Source: Bdellovibrionota bacterium (GTDB lineage Bacteria; Bdellovibrionota; Bdellovibrionia; Bdellovibrionales; JAEYZS01). From it: 32,577 bases of DNA. Below the pieces are notes generated by a model that was not told where the DNA came from, did not search any database, and saw only the letters and a program-made list of their open reading frames with translations. The stretch covers positions 1 through 32,577 of the forward strand of contig CAUJEF010000145.1 in the NCBI GenBank assembly GCA_963169515.1. The letters run 5' to 3'. Position numbers and translations under genes: made by a program. This document shows positions 1,621 through 13,088 of the stretch, piece after piece. Numbering within the stretch: the first letter of the stretch is position 1; each line of letters starts with the position of its first letter.

Positions 1621-1797
1621 TCAACTTGGGTGAATGCTTTTTTTTATTTGTTTTAAAATAGTTTTTTTATTTTTTTCGAAGGCCCGAATGATTTTTTTCT
1701 TTTTCTTTGCAGCCGCTTTTTTTTGAGCAACGACTTTGGGGAACTCTTTGAGTGCCTTCTTTATTTTTTTTAGGCGTTCGATTTGCTCTTTGGTCAT
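1621..1797 (-). CDS. Lys-rich 58-residue protein coupled to zeta-like kinase
   Basis: A 58-codon ORF starts MTKEQIERLKKIKKAL and ends KSIHPS. It contains about 20 lysines and few acidic residues, and is predicted to be helical. Its ATG overlaps the TGA of the upstream zeta-like gene (ATGA at 1794-1797), the usual sign of translational coupling. That coupling and the long open frame support it as a real gene, although poly-A tracts make chance Lys codons likely here. It may be the partner or antidote of the kinase, or a nucleic-acid-binding accessory. I do not recognise a family. Confidence 0.6.
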   Translation of the reverse strand: MTKEQIERLKKIKKALKEFPKVVAQKKAAAKKKKKIIRAFEKNKKTILKQIKKSIHPS

Positions 1798-2381
1798 GTT
1801 TTGCCCTTGCTTAAAAATTTTTCACTAAATTTATTTTGGCCAGCCCCATCCAACTTTTCGTAATCGTCCTTGCTGAGTATCAGTTTGGGCTGTGAATTCG
1901 AGTTGTCGAATATGTACCAGTCTTTGCACAGCGTACGATAGAGAGCCCAAAAGTTTTCAACCGAGCGAGGGATTCTTCTTTTAACTGCTTCTTTGGGGAT
2001 GTCGTGTCCACCTAAGGAAACCCTTTGTTTAATTCGCAGCAGGTTTAGTTTATAATTATTAAGATAAAGAAAATAAATGACGATTTCGTATCCCTGTTTT
2101 TTTGCATCAGATAGCGTATGCAGCCAGTTGCGACCCGATAATGTACTTTCAAAGCAAAAGGATTCGTTTTTGGAAATGCGATCTTTAACTTCAGAAATTA
2201 AAACTCGCCCTGCTTGTATCGATGCTTTTTCGGTTCCTATAGGGGAGATACCGCTGGCAATTAAATCCGGATTTAAATAAACGGAAGTGATCTTTTGTTT
2301 AACCAGATAGGTTTCTGCGAAAGTTGTTTTGCCACTGCCGTTGGGCCCAGCGACGATTTCGATTTTTTTTGAACTACTCAT
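1794..2381 (-). CDS. Zeta-toxin-like P-loop kinase (COG4185 type)
   Basis: The 195-residue protein has a Walker A motif GPNGSGKTT at residues 12-20, then LNPDLIA (36-42), ESTLSG (78-83) and the segment RVSLGGHDIPKEAVKRR with a following RS..NF. These are the landmarks of the zeta-toxin / predicted ABC-type ATPase family. Zeta toxins phosphorylate UDP-GlcNAc using ATP; many chromosomal relatives have unknown substrates. No epsilon-like antitoxin lies upstream: the gene starts 14 nt after the 3' end of tRNA-Pro and may be co-transcribed with it. The only close partner is the downstream Lys-rich ORF. The ribosome site is weak (AGGT). Family assignment is secure, toxicity is inference. Confidence 0.85.
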   Translation of the reverse strand: MSSSKKIEIVAGPNGSGKTTFAETYLVKQKITSVYLNPDLIASGISPIGTEKASIQAGRVLISEVKDRISKNESFCFESTLSGRNWLHTLSDAKKQGYEIVIYFLYLNNYKLNLLRIKQRVSLGGHDIPKEAVKRRIPRSVENFWALYRTLCKDWYIFDNSNSQPKLILSKDDYEKLDGAGQNKFSEKFLSKGKT

Positions 2382-5694: not shown

Positions 5695-5724
5695 TTGATA
5701 TTTTTCTTGGTCATTTTGTGTAAT
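5695..5724 (+). promoter_or_regulatory. Candidate sigma70-type promoter for the PilZ-methyltransferase/cyclase operon
   Basis: TTGATA (5695-5700) and TGTAAT (5719-5724) are separated by 18 nt. They precede the start at 5776 by a distance suiting a leader of about 45 nt. The match is by eye. Confidence 0.45.
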
Positions 5725-5775
5725 CAAACCCACTTAAAAAACCGAAAAAGATACAAGAAAATAGGGGATTTAAAT

Positions 5776-7266
5776 ATGTCAGAAGCCAGTAAAAAAGATG
5801 ATCAAACGCGTGTTTCCAAAAGTAAAGCATTTCGATTTCGTGAATCTAGAATCACACTACCTGAAAAATTCAGTTCGCACGCACTTTTAAAAAACTTCTA
5901 TGGCGATGAAGTCACCGCAAAGGTAGTAAACCTTTCTCAGTTTGGTGCAAGGATTGAAGTCGATACAAAAGATTTTAATTTGCATAAAAACGAATTAATA
6001 AAAGAGGCGAGCGTTTTTGTAAATCACACAAAAGTATATAGCGGCTCCATCAAGGTTGTGAACGAGGCACAGATCGACATAGGCAGGATCGCATATGGGA
6101 TTATTTTTAACGACGATGGAATTGACGTCGAAAAGGTTCGAGCTATCTTAGAGATGGATGGCAAAGAAGATGAATTCATTATTACCACAAGAAACTTTGA
6201 ATTATCAGATCTGGTTTCCCCCAGATTCAAAGAGCTTGTCGCTGATTTAAACACCGTTTTGCAAGAGGTGAGGATAAAGCTTCTGCACGAGGAAATGAGA
6301 ATAAAGGACGCGTATAAAGACGGAGCGTATCAGCAAAGCCTTTGTGAGCACGCCATCTCCATTGCCTTTTCTGTTTACGGTCCGGAAGTAAATCGAATTT
6401 TTTCAAAATTCCAAGAGCTGTCATCTAACTTTGTTGGTGACGAAATTTCTATTCATAAGAAATATTTCCGAATCAACTTTCATCCAATTTTAATGGCCAC
6501 TCCGTTCGTTAATCGGAGCTTCACAAAACCACTCGGTTACTCTGGTGACTATGGGCTAATGGTAATGCTGTACGAATACGAGGACCTTGGGGGAAATCTT
6601 TTTGACAAGTTTTTTCACCGTTTTTGTTGCAATCAAATTGTTACGCTTGCAAACAAAAATCGGGTAGAGGTGCTTAGCCAGTTGATCGTTGAAGATTACA
6701 CAAAATGCTCAAAAAAAGCGGATGAATTTAAAATTTCTAGTATTGCCTGCGGACCCGCACGAGAGATTCAACTCGCGTTGGATAAAATTGAAAATGATCA
6801 TGGGCCTCGAATTGAGATAAAGTTGATAGACAACGAACCTATGGCGCTAGAACACGCACGAAGAAAATTGAGTAAAAACCTGGTGAGTAGGAATTGCAAC
6901 ATAGAGTTTTTCCAAGAAGATGCCATACTCGGTATAATAAAAAAGAGACCGTTTGCAAATGAAATGGAGAATTCTGACGTAATAGTTTGCGCAGGCCTAT
7001 TTGATTACCTAAGCGATAGGGTGAGCGCGAAGCTTATTGAATCGCTATTCGCAATGCTTAAGCCTTGTGGCAGACTTTTAATTGGTAATGTTTCAAAATC
7101 AAATCCAGATCGCTTCTCAATGGAGTATGGGTTGGACTGGCATTTGGTATTAAGATCCAAGGACGATTTATTGAATCTTGTCCCAAGTTCGATAAAGGCA
7201 GCTGCGAAAGTAGATGTTATTTCAGAATCTTTAGGGGTGAACCTGTTTTTGAGCATTATAAAGTAA
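5776..7266 (+). CDS. PilZ domain-SAM methyltransferase fusion (PhcB/3-OH-PAME synthase-like)
   Basis: 496 residues from the ATG at 5776, which has AGGGGA 8 nt upstream; the frame is open to 5695 but lacks a ribosome site there. Residues about 15-125 look like a PilZ c-di-GMP-binding domain: Arg-rich FRFRESR (19-25) and NLSQFG (52-57), matching the NxSxxG motif, although the RxxxR spacing is not exact. After a helical linker comes HPILMATPFVNRS, then KPLGYSGDYGLM (251-262), a SAM site IACGPAREI (323-331), acidic IDNEP (351-355), and GNVSKSNPDRFSMEYGLDW (437-455). These are family features of methyltransferases annotated as makers of 3-hydroxypalmitic acid methyl ester, as I recall them. It shares an operon with the cyclase 7 nt downstream. 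The acid substrate is unproven. Confidence 0.75.
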   Translation: MSEASKKDDQTRVSKSKAFRFRESRITLPEKFSSHALLKNFYGDEVTAKVVNLSQFGARIEVDTKDFNLHKNELIKEASVFVNHTKVYSGSIKVVNEAQIDIGRIAYGIIFNDDGIDVEKVRAILEMDGKEDEFIITTRNFELSDLVSPRFKELVADLNTVLQEVRIKLLHEEMRIKDAYKDGAYQQSLCEHAISIAFSVYGPEVNRIFSKFQELSSNFVGDEISIHKKYFRINFHPILMATPFVNRSFTKPLGYSGDYGLMVMLYEYEDLGGNLFDKFFHRFCCNQIVTLANKNRVEVLSQLIVEDYTKCSKKADEFKISSIACGPAREIQLALDKIENDHGPRIEIKLIDNEPMALEHARRKLSKNLVSRNCNIEFFQEDAILGIIKKRPFANEMENSDVIVCAGLFDYLSDRVSAKLIESLFAMLKPCGRLLIGNVSKSNPDRFSMEYGLDWHLVLRSKDDLLNLVPSSIKAAAKVDVISESLGVNLFLSIIK

Positions 7267-7273
7267 TTTAGAT

Positions 7274-8716
7274 ATGAAAAAAGAACTTCCAGGGACCTAC
7301 ATCGAATATGAACGTGAAGTTCACATAAGACGGGCAAGACAAGCGATTGTATATTTTGCCATCCCGGCCGTATTGATATGGACTATTGTGGATCGTTTTT
7401 ATGTTCCAGATATCATGATGGAATTCTTTTTTGTTCGTTTATTGGTTATCCCCGCAGCTATAATTACTCTAATTTTGTTCCGTCAAAAAAATATTATTTC
7501 GCATGACAAGCTTTATACAGTTCCGTCATTTTTTATGATCTTTTTTATTGGTGTCTATTCTGCCTATTTATGTTATCGGACGGGATTTGAAGAGTCGATT
7601 TATTATGCGGGTATAAACTTAGTTGCAGTAGCACTGTTTGGATTTGTACCCTGGCAACCATATCAACTTTTTATTTTGCCATTTTTGCTTTACTTGCCGT
7701 GGGGGGCAATGCTTTTTTTTAAATCAAGTCAGCTCAATATGGCGATTCTGGTCCCGCATACGGCATTTATGGCTTCAACGGCAACAATAGGATTCGGAAT
7801 CTCGTTGATCATGCGAGCGATTCGAATTAGCGATTTTAAGGCAAAAGTGAGGTTGGATAACGAACTGAAGACCAAGGAGCAGGTTATCGCCCGCAAGACC
7901 AATGAGGGCATATATCTCGAAAAACTTGCAAGCCAGTTTTCCCCACAAGTTATCGATGCAATCAAGAACGGAAAAATATCAATTGATGCCAAAGTAAGAT
8001 CTGAAATATCATGCATCTTTATTGACATAGAAAATTCAACGGACAGATCTGGGAAAATTGATCACAATGACTACCTCGATACGATCACAGAGTTTTTTAA
8101 TAATTGTATAGAAATATTACTAAGGCATGACATTACAATTGGAACTTATCTGGGGGACGGAATGCTTGCATTTGTAAACGCTCCTCAAAAACGCGAAAAT
8201 CATCCCTTGGTTGCAATAGAGGCATGCTTAGATATTCTAAGGGAGCATGACTCGAAAAGAAAATACTACTTTGAAAAGTGGCGCAGGGATTTCAACGTCA
8301 GAATTGGCATAAATACCGGGTACTCATATGTCGGCTTTTTTCCAAGTTATAAGCGGGGAACGTATACAGGGATGGGTGATTCTGTAAATTTGGCATCAAG
8401 ACTGTGCACAAGAGCTACTGCCAATACGATATGCGTCTCCAAAACCTTTATGAAAAGAATCGTTCAAAGCGCGCCGAGTGTTGAAATTATCAAAACAGAA
8501 AGAGTAAATGATCTAAAGGGTTTTGAGAGTGAGCAAATTGAAATTTTCCATCTACGTCATAAAAACACAATTTCGATTCCTTCTGCAGATCTGTGCCCCA
8601 TGTGCAAAGGCAATTTCACAATAGAAGCCGATCTGGGGGTCTCGCTTTATTTAAAGTGTCCTTCGTGCGGCTTCATAGATCTTAGGGACAAAATTCATAA
8701 GAAAAAAGCTGCCTAG
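7274..8716 (+). CDS. Six-TM class III nucleotide cyclase with C-terminal zinc ribbon
   Basis: 480 residues. Six hydrophobic segments at about 23-40, 51-69, 82-101, 111-127, 130-148 and 158-179 form an N-terminal sensor. QFSPQVIDAI (221-230) leads into the cyclase domain at about 240-425. Metal-binding Asp are D251 (FIDIENS) and D295 (YLGDGM); the transition-state Asn/Arg are N372 and R376 (VNLASR). The usual adenine-selecting Lys position, four before D295, is Thr291, and the partner position in YTGMGD is Thr, so ATP versus another substrate is uncertain. The tail has C441-x2-C444 and C462-x2-C465, a zinc ribbon unusual for this class. It follows the methyltransferase closely, and its stop interlocks with the convergent desaturase stop (CTAG). 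It probably makes a cyclic nucleotide in response to a membrane signal. Confidence 0.85.
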   Translation: MKKELPGTYIEYEREVHIRRARQAIVYFAIPAVLIWTIVDRFYVPDIMMEFFFVRLLVIPAAIITLILFRQKNIISHDKLYTVPSFFMIFFIGVYSAYLCYRTGFEESIYYAGINLVAVALFGFVPWQPYQLFILPFLLYLPWGAMLFFKSSQLNMAILVPHTAFMASTATIGFGISLIMRAIRISDFKAKVRLDNELKTKEQVIARKTNEGIYLEKLASQFSPQVIDAIKNGKISIDAKVRSEISCIFIDIENSTDRSGKIDHNDYLDTITEFFNNCIEILLRHDITIGTYLGDGMLAFVNAPQKRENHPLVAIEACLDILREHDSKRKYYFEKWRRDFNVRIGINTGYSYVGFFPSYKRGTYTGMGDSVNLASRLCTRATANTICVSKTFMKRIVQSAPSVEIIKTERVNDLKGFESEQIEIFHLRHKNTISIPSADLCPMCKGNFTIEADLGVSLYLKCPSCGFIDLRDKIHKKKAA

Positions 8717-9678
8717 TGTTTTCTTAACTTCATGTCGATTAATGTTTTGCTAGGTGCTTTTGGTAAGGTTACTAATTTCAGTTCACTCAGAACTAATAAC
8801 AACCAGTGCGATGGATCTAAATGTCGTTTCAAAATGTCGTTTCTGTGCGAGTTGGGAAAGGCGTGGTGGGTGTTGTGCCATGATCCCCCCAGGGTAGGGA
8901 TGAATAGCAATAGATTATTTTTACTGTTGTCGTCCGTACTAAAATCAGTTGCTCCCCAAATATGACAAACAGAGTTGATCATCCAGGTAAAGTGCTGTGT
9001 AAGCGTCAGTCGAACAATCCCTCCCAAAAGGATTCCTTTGGCCAAGAATGTTGGATTTTGACCAGAAATAAAATATGCAATCACGCCTGGAAGAAGAATT
9101 CCGAGAAGTACATTTACAAAGTAAAATCGATCAAACTTGCGAAGTGTTTTATCTGTCAAAAGATCTTTCAGGTAAAGGTTTGGATTTGGATATGGATATC
9201 GTAATTTCCATAGAATATGTGATCGGATGAATGTCTTGAATGTAACTTTGCCGTTGGAATCATAAGGGGAGTGGGTATCGGCTTTGCTGTCGCTATATGC
9301 ATGATGGTGTCGATGAGTTGCCGCCCACGAAGTAATTGTACCTTGCCCTGCGATGTGGGTCAAAAATGCCAAAACGAATTTCACAGATGGTGTGGCGGTA
9401 AATGCTTTGTGCGAAAACAACCTGTGGAACCCCAGCTCAACTCCCACAGCGGTAAGAAACCACATAAACGCAAACACACCGAGATCTAACCAGCCTATGC
9501 CTAAATGAACAAGTATGGGTATTGAGATCAGAGTTAAAACAAGAGGCAAAATATCCATAAGATAAAAATGTACCTTCTGTGCTCTATAAATTGCCGGGTG
9601 CGAGAGAAAGGTTCGGCGTGTTAGCTCTATTCTTTGCTCTGTGATGCCATTGAACTGGCTGGTTTTTTCGTCTTTCAT
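8713..9678 (-). CDS. Fatty-acid (acyl-CoA/acyl-lipid) desaturase
   Basis: 321 residues with the three His boxes of membrane di-iron desaturases: HRLFSH (85-90), HRHHH (122-126) and WHNTHH (267-272), plus H229 and H239. Hydrophobic segments near 42-60, 66-83, 101-118, 186-204 and 213-228 place it in the inner membrane. The delta-9 family inserts a cis double bond into long acyl chains using O2 and an electron donor; position and donor are not visible here. GAGGTG lies 11 nt before the ATG. It is transcribed towards the cyclase and overlaps its stop by 4 nt. It could supply unsaturated chains for the lipid genes further along. Confidence 0.92.
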   Translation of the reverse strand: MKDEKTSQFNGITEQRIELTRRTFLSHPAIYRAQKVHFYLMDILPLVLTLISIPILVHLGIGWLDLGVFAFMWFLTAVGVELGFHRLFSHKAFTATPSVKFVLAFLTHIAGQGTITSWAATHRHHHAYSDSKADTHSPYDSNGKVTFKTFIRSHILWKLRYPYPNPNLYLKDLLTDKTLRKFDRFYFVNVLLGILLPGVIAYFISGQNPTFLAKGILLGGIVRLTLTQHFTWMINSVCHIWGATDFSTDDNSKNNLLLFIPTLGGSWHNTHHAFPNSHRNDILKRHLDPSHWLLLVLSELKLVTLPKAPSKTLIDMKLRKH

Positions 9679-11630: not shown

Positions 11631-12905
11631 TTACGAAAATAGATCTGCCGCCGAATCTGGGGCATGATTCAGGCGCGAATCGCCACTATCCAAATTGTCA
11701 GCGAGCGCGGTATCGTTATCTGCCAGATTGTTCGCTTCCGCGATCATTGGTGCGAGCTCTTTAAATGCGGCAATGGCTTTGTCCAAATCTGCACGTGTAT
11801 GGGTTGCCATAACCGAGCAACGGATCAAAGCGTGGCCCTTTGGAACGGCCGGGTATGGGACCGGTGTTGTGAAAATTCCTCGTTGTAGCAGTTCCTGGCA
11901 AATTACTAATGACATCTCGTCGCTGCCAATGAATACAGGAACCACACAAGTCTCTGAACCAAGGGTGTTCAACCCGATATCATCGAAGGCCTTTTTTAAA
12001 TACGCTGCGTTTGCCTGAACATTATCCACACGTTGGGGCTCTTCTTTTAAAATACGAAGGGCCTTAAGAGCAGACGCTGTACTCGCCGGAGAAAGCGCTG
12101 CAGAAAACATGAATGTGCGCGATTTAACCCGCAACCATTCTGTCAAATCCTTAGACCCGCAAATATAACCACCTTGGCTTGCCAACGATTTCGAAAATGT
12201 GCCCATAAGAACATCTGGTTCAATTTTAAAATGACTTGGAGTCCCTCGACCGCCGACGCCGATTACACCCAGGCCGTGAGCGTCGTCAACATAGGTGCGA
12301 GCGTTGTATTTTTTTGCAAGCTTATGGATACGATCAAAAGGGGCTATGTGTCCGGTCATACTGAATACGCCATCAGTGATAATTAGCTTACCCGCGTCCA
12401 GTGGAACCGATTGGAGAAGTTGTTCCAAATGTTCCATATCTCCGTGTCTATAAACCAGAACATTTGCCCGAGTCAGGCGACAGCCTTCGATGATGCACGC
12501 GTGGTTTTCAAAATCAGAAAAAATGTAGTCGTCTTTTTTAACCAACGCGCCAATAGCGCCTTGGTTTGCCATAAATCCAGTTGCATAAACTAGGGCGGAT
12601 TCTGTACCAAAAAAACTGGCAAGTTCGTCCTCAAGTTCTTCGTGAAGTTCGAGGTTACCATTTAGAAAGCGCGACCCAGTGCAACCGGTTCCCCATTTGT
12701 GGATGGCATCGATAGCGGCCCCCATCACTCGAGGATCGTGCGTGAGACCCAGGTAATTGTTCGAGCCCATCATCACAAGTTCTTGGTTATTGAAAAAAAC
12801 ATTTGTGCCGCGACTGCCTTGAAGACGTCTAAAAAACGGATACATTCCAGAAGATTTCAGCAAACGAATGATCTCTAGACCTTTAAACTTGTTAAACAAA
12901 TCCAT
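11631..12905 (-). CDS. spt: Alpha-oxoamine synthase, serine palmitoyltransferase-like
   Basis: 424 residues from the ATG at 12905, which has GGAGG 11 nt upstream; the longer frame to 12962 lacks this. PLP enzyme of the alpha-oxoamine synthase family: MGSNNYLGL (46-54), GTGCTGSRFLNG (72-83), the stacking His in ENHAC (H135), YVDDAHGLG (205-213) and the Schiff-base Lys239 in GTFSKSLAS. The family condenses an amino acid with an acyl thioester. Neighbours and overall resemblance favour serine palmitoyltransferase (3-ketodihydrosphingosine) over KBL or BioF: no tdh or bio genes are near. Bacteriovorax stolpii is known to make sphingolipids through such an enzyme. An acidic, low-complexity tail of about 30 residues extends beyond the core. 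Confidence 0.82.
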   Translation of the reverse strand: MDLFNKFKGLEIIRLLKSSGMYPFFRRLQGSRGTNVFFNNQELVMMGSNNYLGLTHDPRVMGAAIDAIHKWGTGCTGSRFLNGNLELHEELEDELASFFGTESALVYATGFMANQGAIGALVKKDDYIFSDFENHACIIEGCRLTRANVLVYRHGDMEHLEQLLQSVPLDAGKLIITDGVFSMTGHIAPFDRIHKLAKKYNARTYVDDAHGLGVIGVGGRGTPSHFKIEPDVLMGTFSKSLASQGGYICGSKDLTEWLRVKSRTFMFSAALSPASTASALKALRILKEEPQRVDNVQANAAYLKKAFDDIGLNTLGSETCVVPVFIGSDEMSLVICQELLQRGIFTTPVPYPAVPKGHALIRCSVMATHTRADLDKAIAAFKELAPMIAEANNLADNDTALADNLDSGDSRLNHAPDSAADLFS

Positions 12906-13088
12906 GCAAAAATCCGCCTCCAAAAAGGTCGCTTTTATAAAAAGCGTACCCCCCCATGACACTATCCGAAAAGCATTTCTTATAGACCGTTTTAAATGGT
13001 TTATCGATAAGAAAATGTAGCGAGGAATATTTTTTTCTACTCAACGCAGCACTTTACGGTAAATAATAATAAGAACGCCAATTTTTAG

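Follow-up and report, generated by a model that had tools for sequence, protein, structure and literature searches.

A two-gene unit of a Bdellovibrionota bacterium likely encodes a signal synthase and a receptor of the Phc type, in which the output of the receptor is a class III nucleotide cyclase. The unit lies in contig CAUJEF010000145.1 (assembly GCA_963169515.1, a genome of 2.4 Mb in 173 contigs), of which we have analysed positions 1 to 32,577, called the window below, together with relatives from the Bdellovibrio order. Its first gene codes for a methyltransferase of the PhcB family with a PilZ-like N-terminal domain, and its second gene for a cyclase with a six-transmembrane (six-TM) sensor. 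A Phc synthase with a kinase receptor is already known; what is best explained as new here is the Phc-type pair with a cyclase output. The likelihood given above concerns this core only. The features of the unit are as follows.

5776..7266, + strand: PilZ-like/PhcB-family methyltransferase gene, 496 amino acids (aa)
5833..6156, + strand: N-terminal PilZ-like barrel, aa 20-127, from the topology of the AlphaFold2 model and Pfam PilZ matches in three relatives
5833..5850, + strand: arginine motif R20-F-R22-E-S-R25, with R-x-x-R in 29 of 31 relatives
5929..5946, + strand: N-L-S-Q-F-G motif, aa 52-57, with [ND]x[ST]xxG in 25 of 31 relatives and the glycine nearly invariant
6208..7263, + strand: S-adenosylmethionine (SAM)-dependent methyltransferase domain, aa 145-496, from Pfam, hhalign to PhcB, AlphaFold2 and Foldseek matches to class I methyltransferases
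6526..6549, + strand: signature KPLGYSGD, aa 251-258, common to PhcB and rhizobial relatives
7274..8716, + strand: six-TM sensor/class III nucleotide cyclase gene, 480 aa
7346..7813, + strand: six-TM sensor domain, aa 25-180, with homology to the membrane domain of PhcS
7814..7981, + strand: signalling helix, aa 181-236, linking membrane and catalytic domains, with invariant K208 and F222
7991..8479, + strand: class III cyclase catalytic domain, aa 240-402, with D251, D295, T365, N372 and R376 kept and T291 at the place of the base-selecting Lys
8594..8668, + strand: C-terminal zinc ribbon CPMC...CPSC of the cyclase, aa 441-465
8699..8713, + strand: C-terminal tail KKKAA of the cyclase, an instance of the recurring ending -[KRQ]A[AS]

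The catalytic part of the methyltransferase is related to PhcB over its whole extent. A tblastn search of plasmids found an operon of Paraburkholderia graminis with a methyltransferase, a histidine kinase and two response regulators. In a genome scan, this methyltransferase is 53-92% identical, essentially over the full length, to proteins of Ralstonia, Cupriavidus, Janthinobacterium and others, and several of these Burkholderiales loci show the recognisable phcBSRQ arrangement. Because of this identity and gene order, we take the methyltransferases of the P. graminis type to be PhcB. In the hhalign comparison of profiles, PhcB and the Bdellovibrio-type methyltransferases match with a probability of 100% (E 9e-58) over 338 columns, which comprise the whole catalytic part. 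Pfam Methyltransf_31, Methyltransf_12, Methyltransf_25 and CheR all match this part of the window protein above the cut-off. In the tree, the window methyltransferase tentatively groups with PhcB (support 97/91) and not with the copies of the genus Bdellovibrio, the branches being long.

For the receptor, family-averaged hydropathy shows six peaks, at residues 31, 59, 93, 117, 140 and 167 of the cyclase, and profile comparison indicates that the six-TM resemblance is homology, to PhcS. That is, the membrane domain of PhcS matches that of the cyclases in hhalign with 99.2% (E 1.7e-19). Single PhcS sequences reach a probability of 98-99%, against at most 24% for 53 unrelated multi-TM proteins used as controls. 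In addition, a profile built from Bdellovibrio-type cyclase membrane domains only (A9) picks out PhcS in 59 Burkholderiales loci, where it hits no other open reading frame (ORF). Its E values for the kinase beside PhcB are 2e-10 to 7e-21 (a one-way hidden Markov model search, with adjacency scored in 42 loci), and it also finds the kinase beside the methyltransferase homologue of Pseudanabaena (2e-8). Since the cyclase-only profile finds PhcS while the multi-TM controls fail, we read the unit as a Phc-type signal pair with an exchanged output. The preliminary description, made from the letters of the window, had called the methyltransferase PhcB-like and had likened the six-TM sensor to PhcS; the former is borne out and the latter can now be stated as homology.

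The two genes belong together well beyond the window, where their ORFs stand on the same strand, 7 bp apart. Among 60 relatives, the methyltransferase occurs in 19 besides its own genome, and the cyclase adjoins it in nearly all. Across the phylum, the methyltransferase has 40 places in 36 of 291 genomes and the sensor domain is found in 51 of the 291. In 31 of the 35 methyltransferase loci read, which come from several families, the next gene downstream is a same-strand sensor gene at a distance of -17 to +24 bp. Of these 31 linked sensor genes, 30 are full cyclases; the remaining one, L061:5373-5987 of genome G024, codes for a six-TM sensor of 204 aa that has no cyclase domain. The pairwise divergences of the partners correlate with r = 0.93 over 30 gene pairs, up to a difference of about 80%. 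Mere vertical synteny is rejected as the cause of this linkage, because the genes flanking the unit differ between families and are otherwise unrelated. Thus the operon of methyltransferase and cyclase in the preliminary description holds, and the neighbourhood survey that it proposed has found conserved linkage.

Compared with the Phc system (phcBSRQ) of Ralstonia and Cupriavidus, the window shares adjacent genes for a homologous PhcB synthase and a homologous PhcS six-TM domain. It differs in that the receptor acts through a class III cyclase (Pfam Guanylate_cyc) instead of a histidine kinase, and no PhcR, PhcQ or other response regulator is found in the flanks. In addition, the window synthase has RxxR and NxSxxG motifs while PhcB has neither.

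The sensor occurs with several kinds of output. The same methyltransferase adjoins sensor kinases in Burkholderiales, in Pseudanabaena and in one Bdellovibrionota genome of the survey (G082, locus L161), in which a sensor histidine kinase is convergent to it. In the linked Bdellovibrionota loci other than those of G082 and a further genome, G272, the sensor is joined to a cyclase. In G272 (L179:4214-6853), one chain of 879 aa combines the sensor, HisKA, HATPase, a receiver and a class III cyclase, which places its architecture in between those of PhcS and the window cyclase. In 10 of 10 loci inspected, from plasmids carrying the label of Rhizobium or a neighbour, a protein of the GGDEF-EAL type by annotation is divergent from the methyltransferase. 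The methyltransferase of these loci (L074, L076 and L180-L187) is shorter and without PilZ. The membrane domain of the GGDEF-EAL protein matches the Bdellovibrio-type sensor at 95% (E 3e-8) as a profile and at 59-94% as single sequences, with a control ceiling of 24%. By these matches it is likely related to the PhcS/cyclase sensor, distantly and more weakly than PhcS is. Tentatively, and with rather more doubt than confidence, we suggest a wider module of methyltransferase and sensor, with a c-di-GMP-gated synthase and a natural one-component receptor cyclase, whose outputs are a kinase in Burkholderiales and cyanobacteria, a cyclase in Bdellovibrionota and GGDEF-EAL in Rhizobiaceae.

We now turn to the N-terminal domain. 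PilZ receptors hold cyclic di-GMP (c-di-GMP) by an arginine motif, usually spaced as RxxxR, and a motif of the [DN]xSxxG type. In the AlphaFold2 model of the window protein, whose input alignment was made of PhcB sequences, strands at residues 34-39, 45-54, 57-63, 74-82, 85-101 and 104-111 are followed by a helix at 118-127. These six strands and the helix have the order of the six-stranded PilZ barrel, with a predicted local distance difference test score of about 80, and Pfam PilZ matches three relatives above the cut-off (8e-9, 1e-7 and 4e-10). The domain is therefore likely PilZ-like with a PilZ fold, as far as models can tell. In an alignment of 13 relatives, the only invariant N-terminal columns are R22, R25 and G57, i.e., the arginines of R-x-x-R and the glycine of N-x-S-x-x-G. 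As judged from sequence, these correspond to the c-di-GMP-holding motifs of PilZ, apart from the arginine spacing: N52-L-S-Q-F-G57 agrees with (D/N)xSxxG. A nucleotide site in this domain is thus probable.

Three observations weigh against this assignment. Pfam PilZ has no match in the window protein itself; the RxxxR of PilZ c-di-GMP receptors is replaced by RxxR (FRFRESR in the window); and the N-terminal profile finds no significant PilZ in the Protein Data Bank (PDB), where the PilZ domain of Alg44 appears at E 0.8 and is not counted as evidence. A Foldseek search of the PDB with both methyltransferase models is dominated by class I methyltransferases and is uninformative on the barrel. 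Of the c-di-GMP-type PilZ domain in the preliminary description, the fold and NxSxxG stand, while RxxxR and a Pfam match in the window protein do not. Overall, gating of the methyltransferase by c-di-GMP seems plausible to us, with belief and doubt about equal.

The rival to this one step, compatible with the rest, is that the barrel is an architectural inheritance of the PhcB family which neither binds c-di-GMP nor gates the enzyme. PhcB of Cupriavidus, modelled with a six-stranded N-terminal domain that has no arginine or DxSxxG motif, speaks for it, as does the unmatched RxxxR of the Bdellovibrio-type proteins. However, two arginines and the glycine of NxSxxG alone are kept in an otherwise fast-changing domain, and hhalign detects no sequence relation between the N-termini of PhcB and the Bdellovibrio-type proteins. 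We regard this rival as a serious one, deserving somewhat less than even credence. Because hhalign gave no relation, we do not claim a shared PilZ origin of the two N-termini; judging from the models, an N-terminal domain of such type may predate this lineage, the c-di-GMP-type motif being new.

In the second gene, the catalytic domain matches Pfam Guanylate_cyc (PF00211, 2.3e-14), and its nearest solved relative is CyaB (3r5g, 4e-14). The metal-binding D251 and D295 and the transition-state N372 and R376 of class III cyclases are all present. Adenylate cyclase activity is likely for the cyclase family as a whole, as far as its residues indicate. Two substitutions tell against a standard adenylate cyclase. 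In the window, T291 replaces the base-selecting Lys, which most relatives have, so that the adenine-selecting Lys-Asp or Lys-Thr pair is absent although Thr365 is kept. The cyclases of the genus Bdellovibrio keep the Lys, but their transition-state Asn is changed to Pro (Arg in one). Because of these changes, the activity or specificity of the window and Bdellovibrio-genus cyclases may be altered. That the window cyclase is impaired or of unusual base specificity, with an output other than cyclic AMP (cAMP), would replace a single step and leave the rest intact. The Lys to Thr change recurs in the cyclase of locus L052, some other relatives have Thr, Ser or Asn there, and the Asn372 to Pro change extends to a few cyclases outside the genus Bdellovibrio. 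On the other hand, the metal aspartates and Arg376 are kept, as is Asn372 in the window, and we consider such an impairment unlikely.

The sensor profile finds no solved structure in the PDB even at E 10. MASE8 (Pfam PF20968) is rejected as the identity of this domain, because its matches stay below the cut-off (0.004-0.005). The -[KRQ]A[AS] tail is present in 13 of 35 cyclases against 1 of the 343 other ORFs of these loci (Fisher p 5e-14, without correction for the relatedness of sequences); besides the window, it is carried by L056, L059, L062, L064, L065, L160, L163, L165 and L168-L170. It resembles the C-terminal degrons of ClpXP and may set the turnover of the receptor.

Both homologies, the linkage, the co-divergence, the conserved motifs and the domain order are direct observations, and the mechanism that we propose would be as follows. 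By analogy with PhcB, the methyltransferase would convert a lipophilic carboxylic acid by methylation into an ester able to cross membranes; the acid would most likely be a 3-hydroxy fatty acid or something close to it. PhcB itself makes methyl 3-hydroxymyristate or 3-hydroxypalmitate, fatty-acid methyl esters that are secreted (PMC8578825 and PMC13220807). The ester would leave and re-enter cells and be bound inside the six-helix membrane domain of the PhcS-type sensor. The signalling helix would pass the binding on to the dimeric cyclase and change, in either direction, the level of cAMP or another cyclic nucleotide. The PilZ-like domain would tie the synthesis to a nucleotide inside the cell, in the simplest case c-di-GMP. 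That a sensor and a cyclase can physically be coupled in this way was shown with the CqsS-Rv1625c laboratory chimera, in which a quorum-sensing six-TM domain drives a class III cyclase (PMC4821796).

The required messengers have partners in the genome itself, where we count 5 GGDEF, 11 PilZ (over the cut-off) and 8 cyclic-nucleotide-binding domains. Bd1971 of Bdellovibrio, a cAMP-activated c-di-GMP phosphodiesterase (PMC6717892), likewise ties cAMP to c-di-GMP within this phylum and, together with this module, might complete a loop; it is a different protein, and no EAL domain is found in the window's own genome. Among the annotated adenylate cyclases of Bdellovibrio is bd3072 (PMC6717892). 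From genome position alone, bd3072 is probably the cyclase gene in the copy of the unit that Bdellovibrio bacteriovorus HD100 carries, and if so, the methyltransferase of the unit is probably Bd3071, reported to be a regulatory protein with substantial downregulation during periplasmic predation (PMC12546842).

Two further explanations deny the extracellular signal or the link between the partners. First, the enzyme may be a CheR-like protein methyltransferase, or may methylate another metabolite inside the cell, so that c-di-GMP-gated methylation tunes the cyclase and no signal leaves the cell. The CheR match of the window protein is above the cut-off (6e-7), the solved structure closest to it in sequence belongs to a chemotaxis methyltransferase (1.7e-8), and the KPxGYxGD methyltransferase superfamily extends wider than PhcB, which also counts against a Phc-type synthase. 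MapZ-CheR1 of Pseudomonas is a precedent for the control of a methyltransferase by c-di-GMP via PilZ (PMC6370697). However, the CheR likeness is limited to the general class I fold, the cyclase carries a PhcS sensor, and the same methyltransferase adjoins PhcS, where published work identifies its product as a fatty-acid methyl ester that is secreted (PMC8578825). We thus consider purely intracellular methylation rather improbable.

Second, the sensor may respond to something else than the product of its neighbour, for instance the state of the membrane or a lipid of prey or host, while the methyltransferase modifies a membrane lipid separately. Some methyltransferase copies (G057, G167 and G228) have no adjacent cyclase, which likewise weighs against a signal pair, and there are also sensors with no methyltransferase at all (G044, G166 and G115). 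Effects of free fatty acids on mammalian membrane cyclases have been reported (reviewed in PMC12414865). A fatty-acid desaturase, a suggestive association only, flanks both the unit in the window and the cyclase-less paralogues:

8713..9678, - strand: fatty-acid desaturase, convergent to the unit

Against such separate roles, 31 of 35 loci keep both genes adjacent and co-divergent, and the Phc sensor reads the product of the adjoining methyltransferase, which leaves this explanation quite improbable.

In L063, L171 and L173 (G057, G228 and G167, respectively), the desaturase lies directly upstream of the cyclase-less methyltransferase, on the same strand at 80-160 bp, and a methyltransferase homologue on a Deinococcus plasmid is also clustered with a desaturase. 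Elsewhere in the window, 11631-12962 (- strand) encodes a pyridoxal-phosphate enzyme of the BioF/serine-palmitoyltransferase type, possibly for sphingolipid synthesis; it scores 5e-133 with the NCBIfam profile of the bacterial palmitoyltransferase, yet below the cut-off of that profile. A P-loop protein (GPNGSGKTT) at 1794-2381 (- strand) resembles zeta-toxin/AAA_33 ATPases by eye.

As for the start of the methyltransferase gene, we prefer ATG 5776 to TTG 5695, because the ribosome-binding site AGGGGAT stands just upstream of it and the family profile match begins there. The TTG of the earlier reading would add 27 residues that are unconserved.

Returning to the Phc-type pair with a cyclase output, it can be set beside other known systems. 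The CqsS-Rv1625c chimera, and the idea of cyclase six-TM anchors as receptors that goes with it (PMC4821796), likewise place a six-TM domain of the quorum-receptor type directly on a class III cyclase, but the window protein is natural, of the PhcS type and encoded with a candidate synthase. The six-TM class III adenylate cyclases Rv1625c and Cya share the six helices, the signalling helix and the cyclase domain, whereas the window cyclase belongs to another membrane family and has a C-terminal zinc ribbon. PilZ c-di-GMP receptors such as MapZ, with CheR1 of Pseudomonas aeruginosa, also link a PilZ-type domain to a methyltransferase; in the window, the domains are fused in one chain, the motif is RxxR, and c-di-GMP binding is predicted at most. 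The design was proposed from the outset as undescribed, and we have found no prior description of it in open-access papers (subscription papers and preprints lay outside the scope).

What the six-helix anchors of class III cyclases sense has long been an open question, answered so far mainly by engineered chimeras and by lipids of unsettled physiology. A natural membrane cyclase with a candidate ligand-making enzyme next door, co-diverging with it and kin to a known pair of signal and receptor, offers a short list of testable ligands. We regard the unit as of high interest, since it makes the cyclase-ligand question directly testable. If our reading is true, a cell-to-cell signal would be readable directly as a cAMP-like message, and predatory Bdellovibrio-type bacteria would wire a lipid signal of the quorum type into cAMP and c-di-GMP, the messengers implicated in their life cycle.

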